64,000 bases of DNA from Chryseobacterium nakagawai (GTDB taxonomy: Bacteria > Bacteroidota > Bacteroidia > Flavobacteriales > Weeksellaceae), in the NCBI RefSeq assembly GCF_900637665.1, contig NZ_LR134386.1, positions 2,162,501 to 2,226,500 on the forward strand. The letters run 5' to 3'. Position numbers and translations under genes: made by a program. Each line of letters opens with the position of its first letter. Position 1 is the stretch's first letter. The notes beneath the pieces are model-generated. The model saw only the letters and a program-made list of their open reading frames with translations, was not told the origin of the DNA and did no database searches. Positions 5,301-62,757 of this stretch are shown here, piece after piece.

Positions 5301-6086
5301 ATGAATAAATTTCTATTAAAAGCACTGGTTTTAACCTCAGTAAATGTTGCCGTTTTTGCAAACGCGCAATTTAGAACCCGAAACAGAATGGATAAGTTGG
5401 AAGATTTCGACGAGCAGAAATTCAGTTGGGGTTTTTATTTGAACGGGAATAAACTGGACTACCGAATCGTATTACATCCAACCTATGGGATGAAAGATAA
5501 TCAGAATCTTGTTACCAGTACCAAAGAAAGTTACAGCTTCGGTGCGGGGCTTATTGCAAAATGGAGACTGAATGATTATCTGGATGTAAGAGTAGAGCCG
5601 GGGTTGCAGTTTGCACAAAGACAGCTGACTTTTAATACTCAATCCAATGATGAATATGCAGGTGGATCTGTAACGAATCCCCCTTTTATGCCAATCCCTC
5701 TACAGGAAAAAGATAAAGTAAGGGATATTAAATCTACATTGGTTGACATTCCGGTACTTTTGGAGCTTCACGGAAGAAGATGGTATAACTCAAGACCTTA
5801 TATTGCTGCTGGGGTGAACTATGTAGTGAACCTACAGTCTAATTCCAGTTCTACAGATGATAATATGCAACAGATCTTCAGATCTACAACCCACAACTTT
5901 GCGTGGTCTGCAGAAATGGGAATTCAGTTTTATTTCAACAAATTTAAATTGACCCCTGCCATTAGAGGAACATTCTTCATGAATAATGAAAAAGTGGCTG
6001 ATAATGCTACTACACCTCCTTACTGGGCTTCTGCAGTCTCTACATTACAGACCAGAGCTGTAATGTTTGTACTGAAATTTGAATAA
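5301..6086 (+). CDS. porT: PorT/SprT-family outer membrane beta-barrel protein (type IX secretion)
   Basis: A signal peptide (about residues 1-22, ending FANA-QF) precedes an outer-membrane beta-barrel with alternating amphipathic strands and a C-terminal Phe-rich strand (AVMFVLKFE). Length, the RNRMDKLEDFDEQKFSWGFY opening and the position directly after ubiE match the PorT/SprT protein of the type IX secretion system, which supports gliding and export of C-terminally tagged proteins. It is expected in the outer membrane. A strong terminator follows 24 bases after the stop, so this closes the 3993-6086 operon. Confidence 0.85.
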   Translation: MNKFLLKALVLTSVNVAVFANAQFRTRNRMDKLEDFDEQKFSWGFYLNGNKLDYRIVLHPTYGMKDNQNLVTSTKESYSFGAGLIAKWRLNDYLDVRVEPGLQFAQRQLTFNTQSNDEYAGGSVTNPPFMPIPLQEKDKVRDIKSTLVDIPVLLELHGRRWYNSRPYIAAGVNYVVNLQSNSSSTDDNMQQIFRSTTHNFAWSAEMGIQFYFNKFKLTPAIRGTFFMNNEKVADNATTPPYWASAVSTLQTRAVMFVLKFE

Positions 6087-14329: not shown

Positions 14330-14361
14330 AATAATCCTGATTAGCTATTTGTTAATAATCT

Positions 14362-14422
14362 CTCAATCAGGCGTCATCAGCTTTTGTAAAGCGGTTGGGT
14401 AAGGAAGAACACCATTTCCTTT
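14362..14422 (-). promoter_or_regulatory. Fluoride riboswitch (crcB motif)
   Basis: On the minus strand the CLC leader reads GGAAATGGTGTTC, then TTCC, CCAACCGC and AGCTGATGACGCCT. These match the crcB-motif blocks GGNGATGGNGTTCNCC, AACCGC and GCTGATGACNCCT in order and spacing; the first block has A where G is usual in GATGG. Just after it, CCTGATT (plus strand 14365-14371) is perfectly complementary to AATCAGG (plus strand 14336-14342), which ends seven bases before the ATG. Fluoride binding could therefore free the start region, i.e. control of translation. This switching mechanism is inferred. Confidence 0.82.
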
Positions 14423-14449
14423 TGATGTTACAAAGATATAAATTATGAT

Positions 14450-58302: not shown

Positions 58303-58310
58303 TATATTTG
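58303..58310 (+). promoter_or_regulatory. -7 promoter box of the precursor-peptide gene
   Basis: TATATTTG, a perfect TAnnTTTG, 42 bases before the ATG at 58353. The -33 element is not clear. It suggests the cluster starts its own transcript rather than depending on the GH97 promoter. Confidence 0.55.
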
Positions 58311-58352: not shown

Positions 58353-58571
58353 ATGAAAAAGAAACTAAAAATTACCAGCAATTTAGAGCAAAAGAACATC
58401 CTTAAAAAAGCGATGCAGTCTTCTGAAAATGTAGATTTGTATAAATCTATTTTTGGTGGTGGAAATACAGTTATTATATCACCAGACAATTGTAGCGTAA
58501 CGGCTAGATCAGGGGCTTCTGCTGCTTATAATAGAGCTGATCAATTCCTATTAGCTACTACTAAACTGTAA
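58353..58571 (+). CDS. Putative RiPP precursor peptide
   Basis: The 72-residue product starts with a Lys-rich helical leader (KKKLKITSNLEQKNILKKAMQSSENVDLYKSIF, residues 2-34). It then has a triple glycine (FGGGN, residues 34-38) like a double-Gly export/cleavage site, followed by a 35-residue C-terminal part with one Cys (SPDNCSV), a Ser/Ala-rich segment and YNRADQFLLATTKL. The size, position before a radical SAM maturase, and the hairpin in between fit a RiPP precursor. Candidate cross-link sites, if the maturase is a cyclophane former, are Y-N-R and F-L-L; this is inference. No family is recognised. Confidence 0.8.
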   Translation: MKKKLKITSNLEQKNILKKAMQSSENVDLYKSIFGGGNTVIISPDNCSVTARSGASAAYNRADQFLLATTKL

Positions 58572-58588
58572 TTGCTGACTTAAAATGT

Positions 58589-58624
58589 ATAGTTCTTCGC
58601 TATGGCGGAGAACTATTTTTTTTT
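58589..58624 (+). terminator. Attenuator hairpin between the precursor and the maturase gene
   Basis: Twelve-base arms ATAGTTCTTCGC / GCGGAGAACTAT (one T-G pair) with a TATG loop, followed by a run of nine T (58616-58624). It is a full intrinsic terminator only 16 bases before the radical SAM ATG. Partial read-through would yield far more precursor than enzyme message. Confidence 0.85.
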
Positions 58625-58639
58625 CCAATAAGATAAGAT

Positions 58640-59884
58640 ATGATTACATCTTTTGTATTAAAGGTTGCAAGTAGATGCAATCTCAACTGTTCGTATTGTT
58701 ACATGTATAATTTGGGTGATAAAACTTATCTGAAGCAACCTAAATTCATGTCAATTGATACCATAAAAGCTTTCGCAACTAAACTTAATGAATATTGCCT
58801 GGAAAATAATTTGAATAATATACAAATTGTCTTTCATGGAGGAGAGCCTTTATTAATATCCAAAGAGTTTTACCGTGAATCTATCAAAATTTTTAAAGAA
58901 ATACTTCCCGATCATTACTTTGACTTTGTGATCCAAACCAACGGTGTTGGGTTAGGTGATGAGTGGTATCAACTCTTTAATGAATTAGATATCAGAGTAG
59001 GAATAAGTATAGACGGGCCGAAAGAATACCATGATAAATACCGTGTTTTTCATAATGGAAAAGGTTCTTACGAAGAAGTAAAAGAAGCCATTATGCTGGG
59101 CCAAAATTATGGACTCAACGGAATATTGTCTGTAATTAATCTTAAAATACCCCCTCAGGAACTTTATGATGAAGTGAAAAACCTTCAAGTAAAAGGCCTT
59201 AATATTCTTCTACCAGATGGTCATTTTGATCAGCTTCCTGAAGGAATGGAAAAGGAGTTCGTTAATACCAAAAATTATACTCCCTATGCAGATTGGCTTA
59301 TAGAGCTATTTAAGATTTGGAAGAACGATAATGATAGGATGAGTGTAAGGTTTTTTAAAACACTTATTGACCTGATTGTAGGCGAGGATGAAGGAGATCA
59401 GATTTTAGGTAAAAATATCAATGGTGTTGCCGTATTGGAAACCAATGGTAATTTAGAGGTTGCAGACTTTATACGAGCTTGTTATGAAGGAATAACCAGA
59501 AATGATATTAATATTCACACCCATGCTATTGGCGATGTTTTCAAAGATAGACTTTTTGATGTGTATATGAATGCTCATGCCATGGTATCACAGAAATGTC
59601 TTAACTGTTCTATTTATGATTTCTGTGGCGGTGGATTTTTAGGAAATCGTTATTCTAATGAAAAAGGTTTTGATAATCCTACCATTTATTGCCATGATAT
59701 GATTAAACTTATTACCTATATTCAGAATGATATTATAGATGGAATTCCAGCAGAAGCGCAAAAAGAAATGGAATTGTCAAAAGTTTCGTATGAAGATATA
59801 GTACATGAGTTGGAATTTGACAATGAAGAAATTATGATTGAATCTGAGGTTAAAGAAAAATTAATGCATTATCGATTAGCATGA
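58640..59884 (+). CDS. Radical SAM/SPASM peptide maturase
   Basis: The radical SAM cluster motif CxxxCxxC is at Cys13, Cys17, Cys20 (RCNLNCSYCYMY), with the GGEP motif at residues 67-70. The N-terminal block SFVLKVASRCNLNCSYCYMY and PKFMSIDTIKAFATKLNEYC resembles the FxsB/XyeB-like maturases that cross-link aromatic residues in peptides. The SPASM region has Cys281, Cys320, Cys323, Cys329 (CLNCSIYDFCGGG) and Cys351, able to hold auxiliary Fe-S clusters. Length 414. Its stop overlaps the next ATG (ATGA), so it is co-translated with the downstream gene. Product chemistry is inferred. Confidence 0.9.
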   Translation: MITSFVLKVASRCNLNCSYCYMYNLGDKTYLKQPKFMSIDTIKAFATKLNEYCLENNLNNIQIVFHGGEPLLISKEFYRESIKIFKEILPDHYFDFVIQTNGVGLGDEWYQLFNELDIRVGISIDGPKEYHDKYRVFHNGKGSYEEVKEAIMLGQNYGLNGILSVINLKIPPQELYDEVKNLQVKGLNILLPDGHFDQLPEGMEKEFVNTKNYTPYADWLIELFKIWKNDNDRMSVRFFKTLIDLIVGEDEGDQILGKNINGVAVLETNGNLEVADFIRACYEGITRNDINIHTHAIGDVFKDRLFDVYMNAHAMVSQKCLNCSIYDFCGGGFLGNRYSNEKGFDNPTIYCHDMIKLITYIQNDIIDGIPAEAQKEMELSKVSYEDIVHELEFDNEEIMIESEVKEKLMHYRLA

Positions 59885-60714
59885 ATCTGAAGAAAGGAAT
59901 GTATTTAGCTGGAGATTTCGGTTCCAACTGGAGAAGTCAGCTTAAAATTAATAAAGGAGTCGTTACTGAAAAAGTTGTTAATACGGGTATTGAGTATTTT
60001 GATAATGCCTATTTACCTGATGATCAATGGCGGGATCTTACCGAAACTGAATATAAAATACTCTCTAATTCCGGCCAGCATAATAAAATGTTCAATACTT
60101 TAGGGTTGGGAGAGATTCCGAATGAATTGAAAATATTGTTTAAAGCAATTAAGCTGGAAGACTGTAAGACTCTTTTCGATGTTCAACCCAAATTTCAGGA
60201 AGATGAAAAACTTACACTAAAGCTTAATGAAGTTTTGAATCAATTTCTTAATCAAAAATCTGATACTCAAAGATACCGATTTCATCGCATTACAAGATGT
60301 CTACCGAATATGCATACCACTACTTTTCATCTCCATAATAAAGAGCATATAAAGTATACCGGTCTGCATATCGATCAGAGTACAAAGTTTACGCCTAATA
60401 CAGCGTATAAATCAGATAATAGGATCTCTATCAATATTAGTGAAGAATCCAGATATCTGTATTTTGTCAATTTAACACTGAAACAAATTTATAACGATGT
60501 TAAGAAGCATTACCATGAGGGTTCTGTTACTTCAGATAATATTGTAGAATTATTCTTTTCATTGTATCCTAATTATCCGGTGATAAGAATAGAAGTAAAA
60601 CCTTATCAATATTATATTGCTCCTACAGATAATTTCATTCATGATGGAAGTACACTGGGGAATAAAAAGTTTGATATAACAATGGTGTTTGTGGGAGAAT
60701 TTAATAATTACTAA
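59881..60714 (+). CDS. Putative Fe(II)/2-oxoglutarate oxygenase-like enzyme of the RiPP cluster, copy A
   Basis: The 277-residue protein shares with its downstream neighbour a C-terminal half reading G-x-H-x-D-x-S (His163, Asp165), NRISIN (Arg181), RYLYFVNLTLKQIYND, and PYQYYIAPTDNFIHDGSTLGNKKFD (His254). The HxD...H triad, spaced by about 90 residues, followed by a Lys or Arg near the end, is the metal and 2-oxoglutarate binding plan of the double-stranded beta-helix oxygenases. The N-terminal 100 residues hold a shared LGEIPxELK block. I infer peptide hydroxylation or oxidation. It is not a family I can name with certainty. Confidence 0.7.
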   Translation: MNLKKGMYLAGDFGSNWRSQLKINKGVVTEKVVNTGIEYFDNAYLPDDQWRDLTETEYKILSNSGQHNKMFNTLGLGEIPNELKILFKAIKLEDCKTLFDVQPKFQEDEKLTLKLNEVLNQFLNQKSDTQRYRFHRITRCLPNMHTTTFHLHNKEHIKYTGLHIDQSTKFTPNTAYKSDNRISINISEESRYLYFVNLTLKQIYNDVKKHYHEGSVTSDNIVELFFSLYPNYPVIRIEVKPYQYYIAPTDNFIHDGSTLGNKKFDITMVFVGEFNNY

Positions 60715-61592
60715 TGACTATGAAATTAAAATCAGGAATCAAAATATACGGTGAGAATTTAGAAGATGTTTTAGAAATCAATTCCGGCCTTGTTCATCAT
60801 TCAAAACAAGAGCCTGTAGAAATTGTATTCAAAGATATTAAGTTCAAAGCACAGTATGAACCCAATGCCCATTTAGCAAAAAGGGACTGGAGAAAGTTGT
60901 CTGAACAGGAACTGGGCACCATAAAAGGAGATCACATTAATAAAAAGGATTATAATTCTGTTTTCCTAGGAGAAATTCCTGAAGAACTGAAAGATGTTTT
61001 CCATAAATTAAACCTGCATTCAGCGACTTCAGATGGGGATGCATTTCAAAAATTTATCGAAAATAAAGAGTGGGTTCAGGAATTAAATACTCATCTTAAT
61101 GGGGTATTAGACGAAATTTCATTAGCACCTTATAGATTTATGAGTGTGGCAACCAATTATCCTAATAGTGAAGTGGTATCTTTAAATAAAAGAAAACTGC
61201 CTGAAAATTATACATTCAAAGATATTCATTTTATTGGAGTTCATAAAGACAGTTCTAAAGATATGACTTTGCATACCTGTTATCAGTACGGGAATAGATT
61301 TACCATAAATTTAGGGGAACAGCCTCGCTACTTTTTATTTGTTAATCTTACGATGAAACAGGCACATAATATGCTTAAAGAAAAAGAAGAACTTAAGGAT
61401 GTGGTGATAACAAATGAAAATATTACAGATTATTTTCTAGAGCACTACCCAACCTATCCTGTGATTAAAGTGAAACAAGAGCCCTATCAGTTTTATATTG
61501 CTCCTACAGACAATTGTTTTCATGATGGCACTACAATAGGAAATACCAAAATAGATGTTGTAATGACCTATTTGGGTAAATTTTGTATTTAA
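60714..61592 (+). CDS. Putative Fe(II)/2-oxoglutarate oxygenase-like enzyme of the RiPP cluster, copy B
   Basis: The 292-residue paralogue of the preceding gene has His177-x-Asp179, Arg195 and His270 at the same relative positions, and the same blocks RYFLFVNLTMKQAHN, YPVIKVKQEPYQFYIAPTDN and HDGTTIGNTKID. Its N-terminus differs and it has its own LGEIPEELKDVF. The ATG overlaps the upstream stop by one base (TAATG). Two diverged copies that both keep the triad suggest two different positions or reactions on the same peptide, or a heterodimer. Function is inferred. Confidence 0.7.
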   Translation: MTMKLKSGIKIYGENLEDVLEINSGLVHHSKQEPVEIVFKDIKFKAQYEPNAHLAKRDWRKLSEQELGTIKGDHINKKDYNSVFLGEIPEELKDVFHKLNLHSATSDGDAFQKFIENKEWVQELNTHLNGVLDEISLAPYRFMSVATNYPNSEVVSLNKRKLPENYTFKDIHFIGVHKDSSKDMTLHTCYQYGNRFTINLGEQPRYFLFVNLTMKQAHNMLKEKEELKDVVITNENITDYFLEHYPTYPVIKVKQEPYQFYIAPTDNCFHDGTTIGNTKIDVVMTYLGKFCI

Positions 61593-61611
61593 TTTTAAAT
61601 AATATCGAGAA

Positions 61612-62757
61612 ATGAAATCTTTTTTATCATTATGTATTGTCTCGTTTTTAAATTCTTTTTCATTGGCCCAGAATACATTACCTATTCTAAAAGCAAACGG
61701 GCCTAAAGCTGTCATTTATGAAAAAGATAATGGCTTAAAAACAGATTGGAATATAGATCCTAAAATTAAAACGGATGTATATACGGTATCCAAAATAGCG
61801 ACTTCTAATAAACGGGTTACTATAAAAACAGATATCGACTCTCTTGTTGTAGACCTCAAAAAAGGAGAAAAAAAAGATTTTATCATTCTTTTGAAGGGTA
61901 AAGATTCAGCGCTTACGAGAATTGAATCCTTGCCTCCAAAAGATTTTAGTAAAATGTCTTTTAAAGATACGCTGCAACTTCATATGAATGAGCAGAATAC
62001 AATATTCGTAAAAACAGTACTTAATAAAGTAGATACGCTTCTGCTTAACTTTGATACAGGAACAAGCGATCTTGTCCTTACACAGGAAACATTAAAGAAT
62101 AAAATCAAAAGTTCATTAAAATCAGGAACCAATATTCTACAAATCGGAAAAAAAGAATACAAAGATTTTAATATCTACCCGGCACAACTTACCGGTCATG
62201 GTACAGATGGTAGATTTGGCTGGGATTTATTTGATGGAATGATTGTAGAATTAAATCATGATAAGGGATTAATGGTTGTACATTCTAAGCTTCCATCTCA
62301 TGTAAAATCTCAATATTCCCCGGTTCCAATCAAGTATTTTAATAACGTTTTCTTGGTACAAGTGGGCATTGCTCAAGATAAGATTAAAAATAATGATTGG
62401 TATTTGTTTGACACAGGATATCAGAGAACAGCAATGTTGGATGGCCCTTTATTAAATGAGCAGGGATTCCCTACGGATAAAATGACGGTCATTAAAAAAG
62501 TAATCATGAAAGGGGCCCAGGGAAATGAAATTCCTGTTATGACCTCCAACCTTCAATCTTTATCATTAGGAAAAACAAAACTAAAAGATATTCCTGTACA
62601 GCTCTTATCTCAAAGCAGACCCGTAACAGGCTCCAGAATGAATATTCTGGGTAATGAAATTCTAAAAAGGTTCAACCTATTTTTAGACTTTCAAAAAAAT
62701 ATCGTTTATCTAAAACCTAATCAATTGATTAATGCTACTTACATTGAAAGTAAATGA
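61612..62757 (+). CDS. Secreted retropepsin-like aspartic protease
   Basis: A signal peptide (MKSFLSLCIVSFLNSFSLAQ) sends the protein out of the cytoplasm. Two aspartic-protease lobes each carry the DTG motif: NFDTGTSDLVL (Asp148) and LFDTGYQRTAM (Asp267). The hydrophobic-hydrophobic-Gly motif follows in each lobe (GRFGWDLFD and NILGNEIL). The first 110 residues are a separate beta-rich domain. It starts 19 bases after copy B, so it is in the same operon. It may trim the exported peptide in the periplasm; a role in immunity or an unrelated one is also possible. Confidence 0.85.
   Translation: MKSFLSLCIVSFLNSFSLAQNTLPILKANGPKAVIYEKDNGLKTDWNIDPKIKTDVYTVSKIATSNKRVTIKTDIDSLVVDLKKGEKKDFIILLKGKDSALTRIESLPPKDFSKMSFKDTLQLHMNEQNTIFVKTVLNKVDTLLLNFDTGTSDLVLTQETLKNKIKSSLKSGTNILQIGKKEYKDFNIYPAQLTGHGTDGRFGWDLFDGMIVELNHDKGLMVVHSKLPSHVKSQYSPVPIKYFNNVFLVQVGIAQDKIKNNDWYLFDTGYQRTAMLDGPLLNEQGFPTDKMTVIKKVIMKGAQGNEIPVMTSNLQSLSLGKTKLKDIPVQLLSQSRPVTGSRMNILGNEILKRFNLFLDFQKNIVYLKPNQLINATYIESK

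Follow-up and report, generated by a model that had tools for sequence, protein, structure and literature searches.

What is made by the five closely packed genes that close a 64,000-nucleotide (nt) stretch of the Chryseobacterium nakagawai genome (contig NZ_LR134386.1, positions 2,162,501 to 2,226,500 of the forward strand; here called the window)? A preliminary description of this DNA proposed a new pathway for a ribosomally synthesised and post-translationally modified peptide (RiPP), in which a short precursor is cross-linked by a radical S-adenosylmethionine (SAM)/SPASM enzyme, oxidised by two paralogous enzymes, and trimmed after export by a secreted protease. All five open reading frames (ORFs) were found where that description had placed them, on the + strand:

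58353 to 58571, + strand: A, RiPP precursor, 72 residues (ORF, alignment of 41 precursors, substitution rates)
58640 to 59884, + strand: B, radical SAM/SPASM maturase of the FxsB/YhhB/ChlB-related cyclophane synthase type, 414 residues
59881 to 60714, + strand: C1, MicC-like Fe/α-ketoglutarate oxygenase, clade 1, 277 residues
60714 to 61592, + strand: C2, MicC-like oxygenase, clade 2, 292 residues
61612 to 62757, + strand: P, two-lobed aspartic protease with a signal-like N-terminus, 381 residues; its place in the pathway is doubtful

The last genes were said to overlap or nearly so, and this is the case: the overlap is 4 nt between B and C1 and 1 nt between C1 and C2, and 19 nt separate C2 from P. 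As judged from gene content and conservation, A-B-C1-C2 is a RiPP operon, and the gene set is real and conserved. The peptide, which has a Gly-Gly (GG) leader, probably undergoes cyclophane formation followed by hydroxylation; we infer both the cross-link and the hydroxylations themselves from sequence. Guided by the leader, B would generate a radical from SAM and with it couple the aromatic ring of Tyr59 with the β-carbon of Arg61, giving a three-residue cyclophane, and might also link Phe65 to Leu67. C1 and C2, as Fe(II)/α-ketoglutarate enzymes, would then each hydroxylate a different place on the cyclised core. The leader would be cut after FGG by a C39 peptidase-ATP-binding cassette (ABC) exporter, which is borne by the cluster in several other genera and would here lie elsewhere in the genome. 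P may trim the exported peptide, and its tie to the pathway is weak. Of the RiPP pathway as first proposed, the precursor, the maturase, the two oxygenases of one family and their co-conservation therefore stand; P as a fixed member does not.

The precursor and its conservation

The order A-B-C1-C2 is present in 39/39 distinct Bacteroidota loci whose B is 54-100% identical to that of the window. (These 39 loci, with 41 precursors, include the window and leave out 11 duplicates, namely those of L080-L093 that repeat genus genomes already counted; L094, which starts at a contig end, is not counted for A or B.) Within the genus, A lies just upstream and both C genes lie downstream in all 21 loci with a B relative at 64-100% identity. 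What is known from other genera rests on a single scan of genome contigs with the C alignment, which gave 38 loci, 28 of them carrying A and B. Maturase homologues without a conserved peptide gene upstream had been named in advance as the observation that would speak against the pathway, and across the 39 loci A is always upstream of B. Among more distant relatives of B (17 in the genus, at 30-43% identity) the outcome is divided: no homologue of A was found by BLAST at 1e-4, but 15 of the 17 have a different short peptide ORF no more than 150 nt upstream.

The leader of A ends in DLYKSIFGG (residues 28-36) and is followed by a variable linker (residues 37-46) and by a core that starts at C47 and contains Y59-N60-R61, D63 and F65-L66-L67. 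The leader consensus is DLYxxxFGG, and FGG is its terminus in 39/41 precursors, the exceptions being FGK (L101) and FAG (L104). The GGG site of the preliminary description was rejected by this alignment, in which only FGG is kept and the third G varies. The core Cys, Tyr-[Asp/Asn/Ser]-[Lys/Arg] and Phe-Leu are found in every one of the 41 precursors, and an Asp lies 2-3 residues ahead of the Phe in 40, with Glu in its place in L054. All 41 thus carry aromatic-x-x motifs of the triceptide core type, as Y-[DNS]-[KR] and F-L-x, a pattern that was defined only after the alignments had been inspected. Linker length, 4-24 residues overall, is 9-24 in the clade of Chryseobacterium loci that lie near sus-type genes (the sus-site clade), 14 and 16 in two clusters at other sites, and 4-5 in 14 loci from other genera. 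For A, the ratio of nonsynonymous to synonymous substitution rates (dN/dS) lies between 0.04 and 0.25 in 12 of 13 pairs, with dS saturated in the 13th; these are rough figures, several dS values being above 1. Because these ratios are low and gene order is kept across genera, A goes beyond a chance ORF, and by this measure it is a genuine gene for a peptide with a GG-type leader, kept by purifying selection.

Precursor genes are also found in other arrangements. A Niastella cluster holds two in tandem (L096:5160-5622), and in Mucilaginibacter flavus they flank an outer-membrane-type gene on both sides (L103:2468-2674 and 5424-5627).

The maturase and the predicted cyclophane

B had been described as a full CxxxCxxC radical SAM enzyme with SPASM cysteines, and the alignment agrees: C13xxxC17xxC20 and C320, C323, C329 and C351 are invariant in 15/15 sequences, the window included. 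It matches PF04055 at 65.4 bits, and its best curated models are YhhB (NF041707, 339.3 bits, cut-off 445), FxsB (TIGR04269, 317.5 bits, cut-off 370) and XyeB (186 bits, cut-off 450), all three of them cyclophane formers. YhhB, according to PMC11002830, forms C-C crosslinks between Tyr and Arg and between His and Arg, which fits the Tyr-Asn-Arg of the window precursor. Two points among others favour the cyclophane reading: all 41 precursors have Y-x-K/R, the type of motif reported for YhhB in that source, and YhhB is the best match of B. The most likely product of B would be the three-residue Tyr59-Arg61 cyclophane, with perhaps a second cyclophane at Phe65-Leu67.

Two oxygenases of the MicC type

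C1 and C2, announced as two tandem diverged copies with an HxD...H triad, are just that; they share 38% identity, and H163, D165 and H254 (C1 numbering) are invariant in 33/33 sequences of both types. Neither matches a Pfam or NCBIfam model up to E 1. Both are homologous to MicC (PDB 9vkm), an α-ketoglutarate-dependent non-heme iron oxygenase (C1, E 2.9e-17; C2, E 2.2e-18), over its catalytic part and with the same metal triad. The predicted structure of C1, with a predicted local distance difference test (pLDDT) score of 93.4, has the double-stranded β-helix fold of the MicC-like class; its best listed structural matches are Fe/α-ketoglutarate enzymes with moderate scores, and MicC is not among the fold-search matches listed for C1, though it is present in the PDB sequence set. 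An HExxH motif occurs in neither C1 nor C2 and in only 1/33 aligned sequences, and hence is not conserved.

In a midpoint-rooted tree, from which seven Chryseobacterium loci were omitted as near-copies, the C1 clade has support of 98/93 and the C2 clade of 100/97. Each clade has members from Chryseobacterium, Flavobacteriaceae, Chitinophagaceae and Sphingobacteriaceae, so that the duplication is probably an old one, from before the split of these Bacteroidota genera. Chryseobacterium loci have one copy of C2; among the 14 loci of other genera that carry A and B, two copies are found in 5 and three in 9. The chances seem evenly balanced for a wider model, in which one cyclised peptide meets between two and four oxygenases of the MicC type (a single C1 with one to three C2), each acting at its own position, the ancient duplication was trimmed to two genes in some lineages, copy number tunes oxidation, and the clusters outside the sus-site clade carry a pseudoknot-like mRNA leader (below).

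The family is wider than this operon: 256 homologues of C reach E 1e-5 or better, and 120 of these were listed. In 8/8 loci (L109-L116) a C-like gene adjoins a B-like radical SAM gene, and BLAST found no homologue of A there; in L115 the radical SAM gene scores 426 bits with the GrrM/OscB cyclophane model, whose cut-off is 310. A Thermosynechococcaceae locus (L117, 4691-10050) has two tandem fusions of a radical SAM domain with a C-type oxygenase, of 719 and 738 residues, preceded by a gene for a Nif11-like peptide with a GG site. This arrangement supports the idea that the two activities would work on one peptide, though no cyclophane model is matched above cut-off by the radical SAM domains of these fusions.

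The proposed scheme resembles in its logic that of ChlB-ChlH, where Asp and His of a cyclophane that has already formed are hydroxylated by a different α-ketoglutarate enzyme (PMC12636437). One or both oxygenases might instead form a further crosslink, desaturate the peptide or cleave its backbone. The same paper describes an α-ketoglutarate HEXXH enzyme that cleaves the backbone oxidatively and mentions a first one that forms a crosslink, and the old, kept duplication leaves room for C1 and C2 to differ in their reactions; but the paper also states that few α-ketoglutarate activities have been characterised in RiPP pathways and that these are for the most part hydroxylations. A reaction other than hydroxylation is accordingly regarded as unlikely.

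The protease and export

P was described as a secreted protease with two DTG motifs. An FDTG motif is present at D148 and at D267, both are kept in 17/17 intact copies, and a signal-like N-terminus is apparent by eye. With its two D-T-G lobes and a PF13650 score of 25.2 bits (cut-off 24.3), P is by sequence a clan AA aspartic protease. Foldseek places 9iy9 first (E 1.2e-6), followed by pepsin-type proteases, using a structure model of pLDDT 71.6 in which the first lobe is weak.

Could P be a dedicated processing protease that replaces the C39 exporter-peptidase in Chryseobacterium and cuts the long variable linker after export? P lies 3' of C2 in 19/21 fetched Chryseobacterium clusters, none of the 22 operon-bearing genomes has a C39 match closer than 300 kb to the operon on the same contig, and the linkers of the sus-site clade are long where those of the 14 loci from other genera are short. 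But P is found in 15/136 operon-less as well as in 20/22 operon-bearing genomes (35 of the 158 genus genomes). Four operon-less genomes (G063, G086, G112 and G096) have P, at 66-68% identity, beside the GH97 glucosidase gene, at the same site and without A, B or C, and 11 further ones hold relatives at 32-57% identity (surroundings were fetched for 8 of these 15). Conversely, the two operon-bearing genomes without P still have linkers of 14 and 16 residues, and linkers of 5 also occur in five Flavobacteriaceae loci of marine type whose listed stretch holds no C39 gene. A dedicated role of this kind is thus doubtful. The two sets of genomes, with P alone and with the operon alone, also weigh against P in our own scheme, and its status as a fixed pathway member was downgraded once P had been found at the same site without the operon. 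In the P tree the four genomes form their own clade, whose position among the operon-bearing groups the tree does not fix. (It should be noted that P is split by stops or frameshifts in L043, L047 and L062, which were counted as present and excluded from the P alignment; the B gene of L062 is also split in the assembly and was likewise counted.) P may be either a neighbour at the site or a remnant left after operon loss, and the trimming claim is weak because P occurs without the operon and the operon without P.

The preliminary description had noted that no exporter is encoded in the window, and this agrees with a search for the C39 type, the only type searched for: the Chryseobacterium cluster has no C39-ABC gene, and the two C39 peptidase-ABC matches in the window's genome are both outside the window, each beside another short GG peptide. 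In other genera, for which neighbours were listed at 13 loci (L106 and L108 not among them), a C39-ABC gene directly follows the last C2 in 7 (L094-L098, L100 and L103, by eye), lies upstream in L104, and is absent from the listed stretch of five. The loci with the gene 3' of the cluster are Chitinophaga, Niastella, Longitalea and Mucilaginibacter relatives, and in L095 the C39 and ABC domains were confirmed by Pfam. An outer-membrane-type gene of about 800 codons lies upstream in 11 of the 13 (Pfam-confirmed in L095 and L105). It is possible that export in Chryseobacterium would occur in trans, through a C39 exporter encoded elsewhere in the genome. At least one C39 match is present in 22/22 operon-bearing genomes; this presence was discarded as evidence because 155/158 genus genomes have one.

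The two C39 regions of the window's genome are clusters in their own right, in which short GG-type peptides are encoded next to C39-ABC genes (L120:2539-9385 and L121:4435-8238). One appears lanthipeptide-like and the other has a membrane-fusion-like protein, as read by eye from the ORFs.

Weighing the reaction of the maturase

Several observations weigh against a cyclophane as the product of B. The enzyme scores below the curated cut-offs of both YhhB and FxsB and cannot be filed as either; indeed, it is below the cut-off of every family model listed (the best 25 of 64). These points leave room for B to catalyse another radical SAM peptide reaction, such as ether, C-N or thioether formation or epimerisation, with C1 and C2 acting on the product. 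A thioether-forming enzyme could use the one conserved core Cys of the 41 precursors, and anaerobic sulfatase maturases match B, both as the fourth model (167.9 bits) and as PDB 4k36 (E 1.8e-21). Against this, ChlB (9gm3, E 6.8e-61), which is the nearest solved relative of B and its best PDB match, is a cyclophane former, as are the three highest-scoring models, and Tyr-x-K/R, invariant among the precursors, is what the aromatic-x-x rule of PMC11002830 leads one to expect. A different reaction is on balance improbable, and the cyclophane remains the preferred product.

The distant relatives of B in the genus include one, in L078, that scores 530 bits with the YhhB model, above its cut-off of 445. 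Several of the peptides encoded beside these relatives carry repeated aromatic-x-x motifs, for example WSN or YNR/HNR, by eye. Those in L065, L067, L068, L073, L074 and L078, with repeated WSN, YxQ or YNR/HNR, are suggestive, pointing to further cyclophane-type families in Chryseobacterium.

Distribution and genomic site

With the C profile at E 1e-15 there are 3 holders among 395 phylum genomes, so prevalence is low. In most Chryseobacterium holders the operon follows the GH97 glucosidase gene and is near further sus-type genes; in L060 and L061 (C. rhizosphaerae type) it is at another site. The GH97 gene was found in 8 operon-less genomes, and in the downstream flanks of the 5 for which these were seen B, C and P are missing; the next long ORF is FA_hydroxylase-like (L126 and L127), SusA-like (L129) or transporter-like (L123 and L130), by eye. 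On a GH97 tree of 32 rows, which includes 12 of the 136 operon-less genomes, the distribution of the operon requires 6 changes, of which 3 or more are forced, and because of this the operon seems to come and go at the sus site. That the A peptide has a regulatory or maintenance role, and that the operon serves starch metabolism by the sus locus and not secretion of a natural product, is suggested by its location in most Chryseobacterium holders but is highly improbable, given the different site in L060 and L061, the outer-membrane gene and, in part, exporter gene that flank the operon in other genera, and its patchy presence on the GH97 tree.

Relation to known systems

The operon appears to belong to a kind of ribosomal peptide natural product that is already known, as a branch of it not yet described. 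Neither this gene set nor MicC in this setting was reported in the literature searched, which leaves most subscription journals outside its coverage, and the pathway and reaction of MicC itself were not found there. The word "new" in the preliminary description therefore holds for the combination, the precursor family and the layout of C1 with multiple C2, which were not found in that literature, but not for the enzyme classes, each of which has a known relative (YhhB/FxsB, ChlB or MicC). B aligns end to end with the FxsB and YhhB models and the precursor has the aromatic-x-x motif of triceptides, but the scores of B differ from theirs as described, two or more MicC-like oxygenases are attached, and leader, linker and core form their own family among the loci compared. 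With ChlB/ChlH the operon shares its nearest solved maturase relative and the logic of a cyclophane first and α-ketoglutarate hydroxylation second; however, in PMC12636437 ChlH is present as a zincin-like domain with HEXXH in a fusion with the radical SAM enzyme, whereas here the oxygenase is separate, of the HxD...H type without HEXXH, and present in two or more copies. C1 and C2 share homology and the metal triad with MicC, but MicC is nearer a cyanobacterial protein (Nostoc, L113, E 5.1e-28), its nearest among the relatives compared. Finally, the leader end ...IFGG and the C39-ABC gene that follows the cluster in several other genera resemble those of C39-exported GG-leader peptides, from which the Chryseobacterium cluster differs in having no such gene.

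Compact as it is, the operon provides a tractable example of an oxygenase family that is still unnamed and whose members are found repeatedly next to radical SAM/SPASM peptide maturases, in Cyanobacteria as well as in Bacteroidota. Up to four paralogues acting on one short peptide would reveal how oxygenases divide site choice, and the conserved core predicts where crosslink and oxidation should fall.

Regulatory elements

Two elements accompany A in the window:

58303 to 58310, + strand: TATATTTG box (TAnnTTTG) 5' of A, conserved in the sus-site clade
58589 to 58624, + strand: terminator-like hairpin and nine-T run in the A-B gap

The TATATTTG box is kept in 20/22 aligned upstream regions and is missing from L060 and L061, which lie at the other genomic site; its TAnnTTTG form is presumably the Bacteroidetes -7 type consensus. 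The attenuator proposed between A and B is borne out as a hairpin and T run: 12 base pairs at 58589-58616 (-16.1 kcal/mol) lead into a run of nine T whose first base closes the stem. By script, a hairpin with a T run was found in 16/36 A-B gaps (L100 and L101 being weak cases) and in 8/22 of those in Chryseobacterium, where most remaining gaps have a visible hairpin and an interrupted T run. We infer that the hairpin 3' of A would act as an attenuator, such that the cell makes much more peptide than enzyme.

A different element of about 38 nt lies 20-27 nt ahead of the precursor ATG in 16/16 clusters outside the sus-site clade, in variant form in L096 and L100. Examples, in an alignment that holds 13 further loci, are:

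L092:5400-5437, L095:5407-5444 and L105:5346-5383: 5' element

It is able to form a pseudoknot (AAGGGC with GUCCUU, UGYCAU with AUGRCA). Pairing holds in 93.2% of the cells, and in 7 of them both sides are changed, where shuffles give 1.7; other statistics are less clear (pairs with a double change, 16/500 shuffles; pair types, 137/500). The structure was read from the same 16 sequences on which it was scored, with L100 misaligned by one base, and the element may alternatively be a DNA palindrome bound by a regulator. No Rfam family reached its gathering score in 6 loci, and a 141-base piece of L105 gave sub-threshold matches only. The motif is absent from the window's genome when up to 2 mismatches are allowed, and its exact form is found in 1/395 phylum genomes, itself holding a cluster of this kind. 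The only Rfam match in the window is a fluoride riboswitch, away from the operon, at 14361-14428 on the - strand (50.3 bits, gathering score 34).

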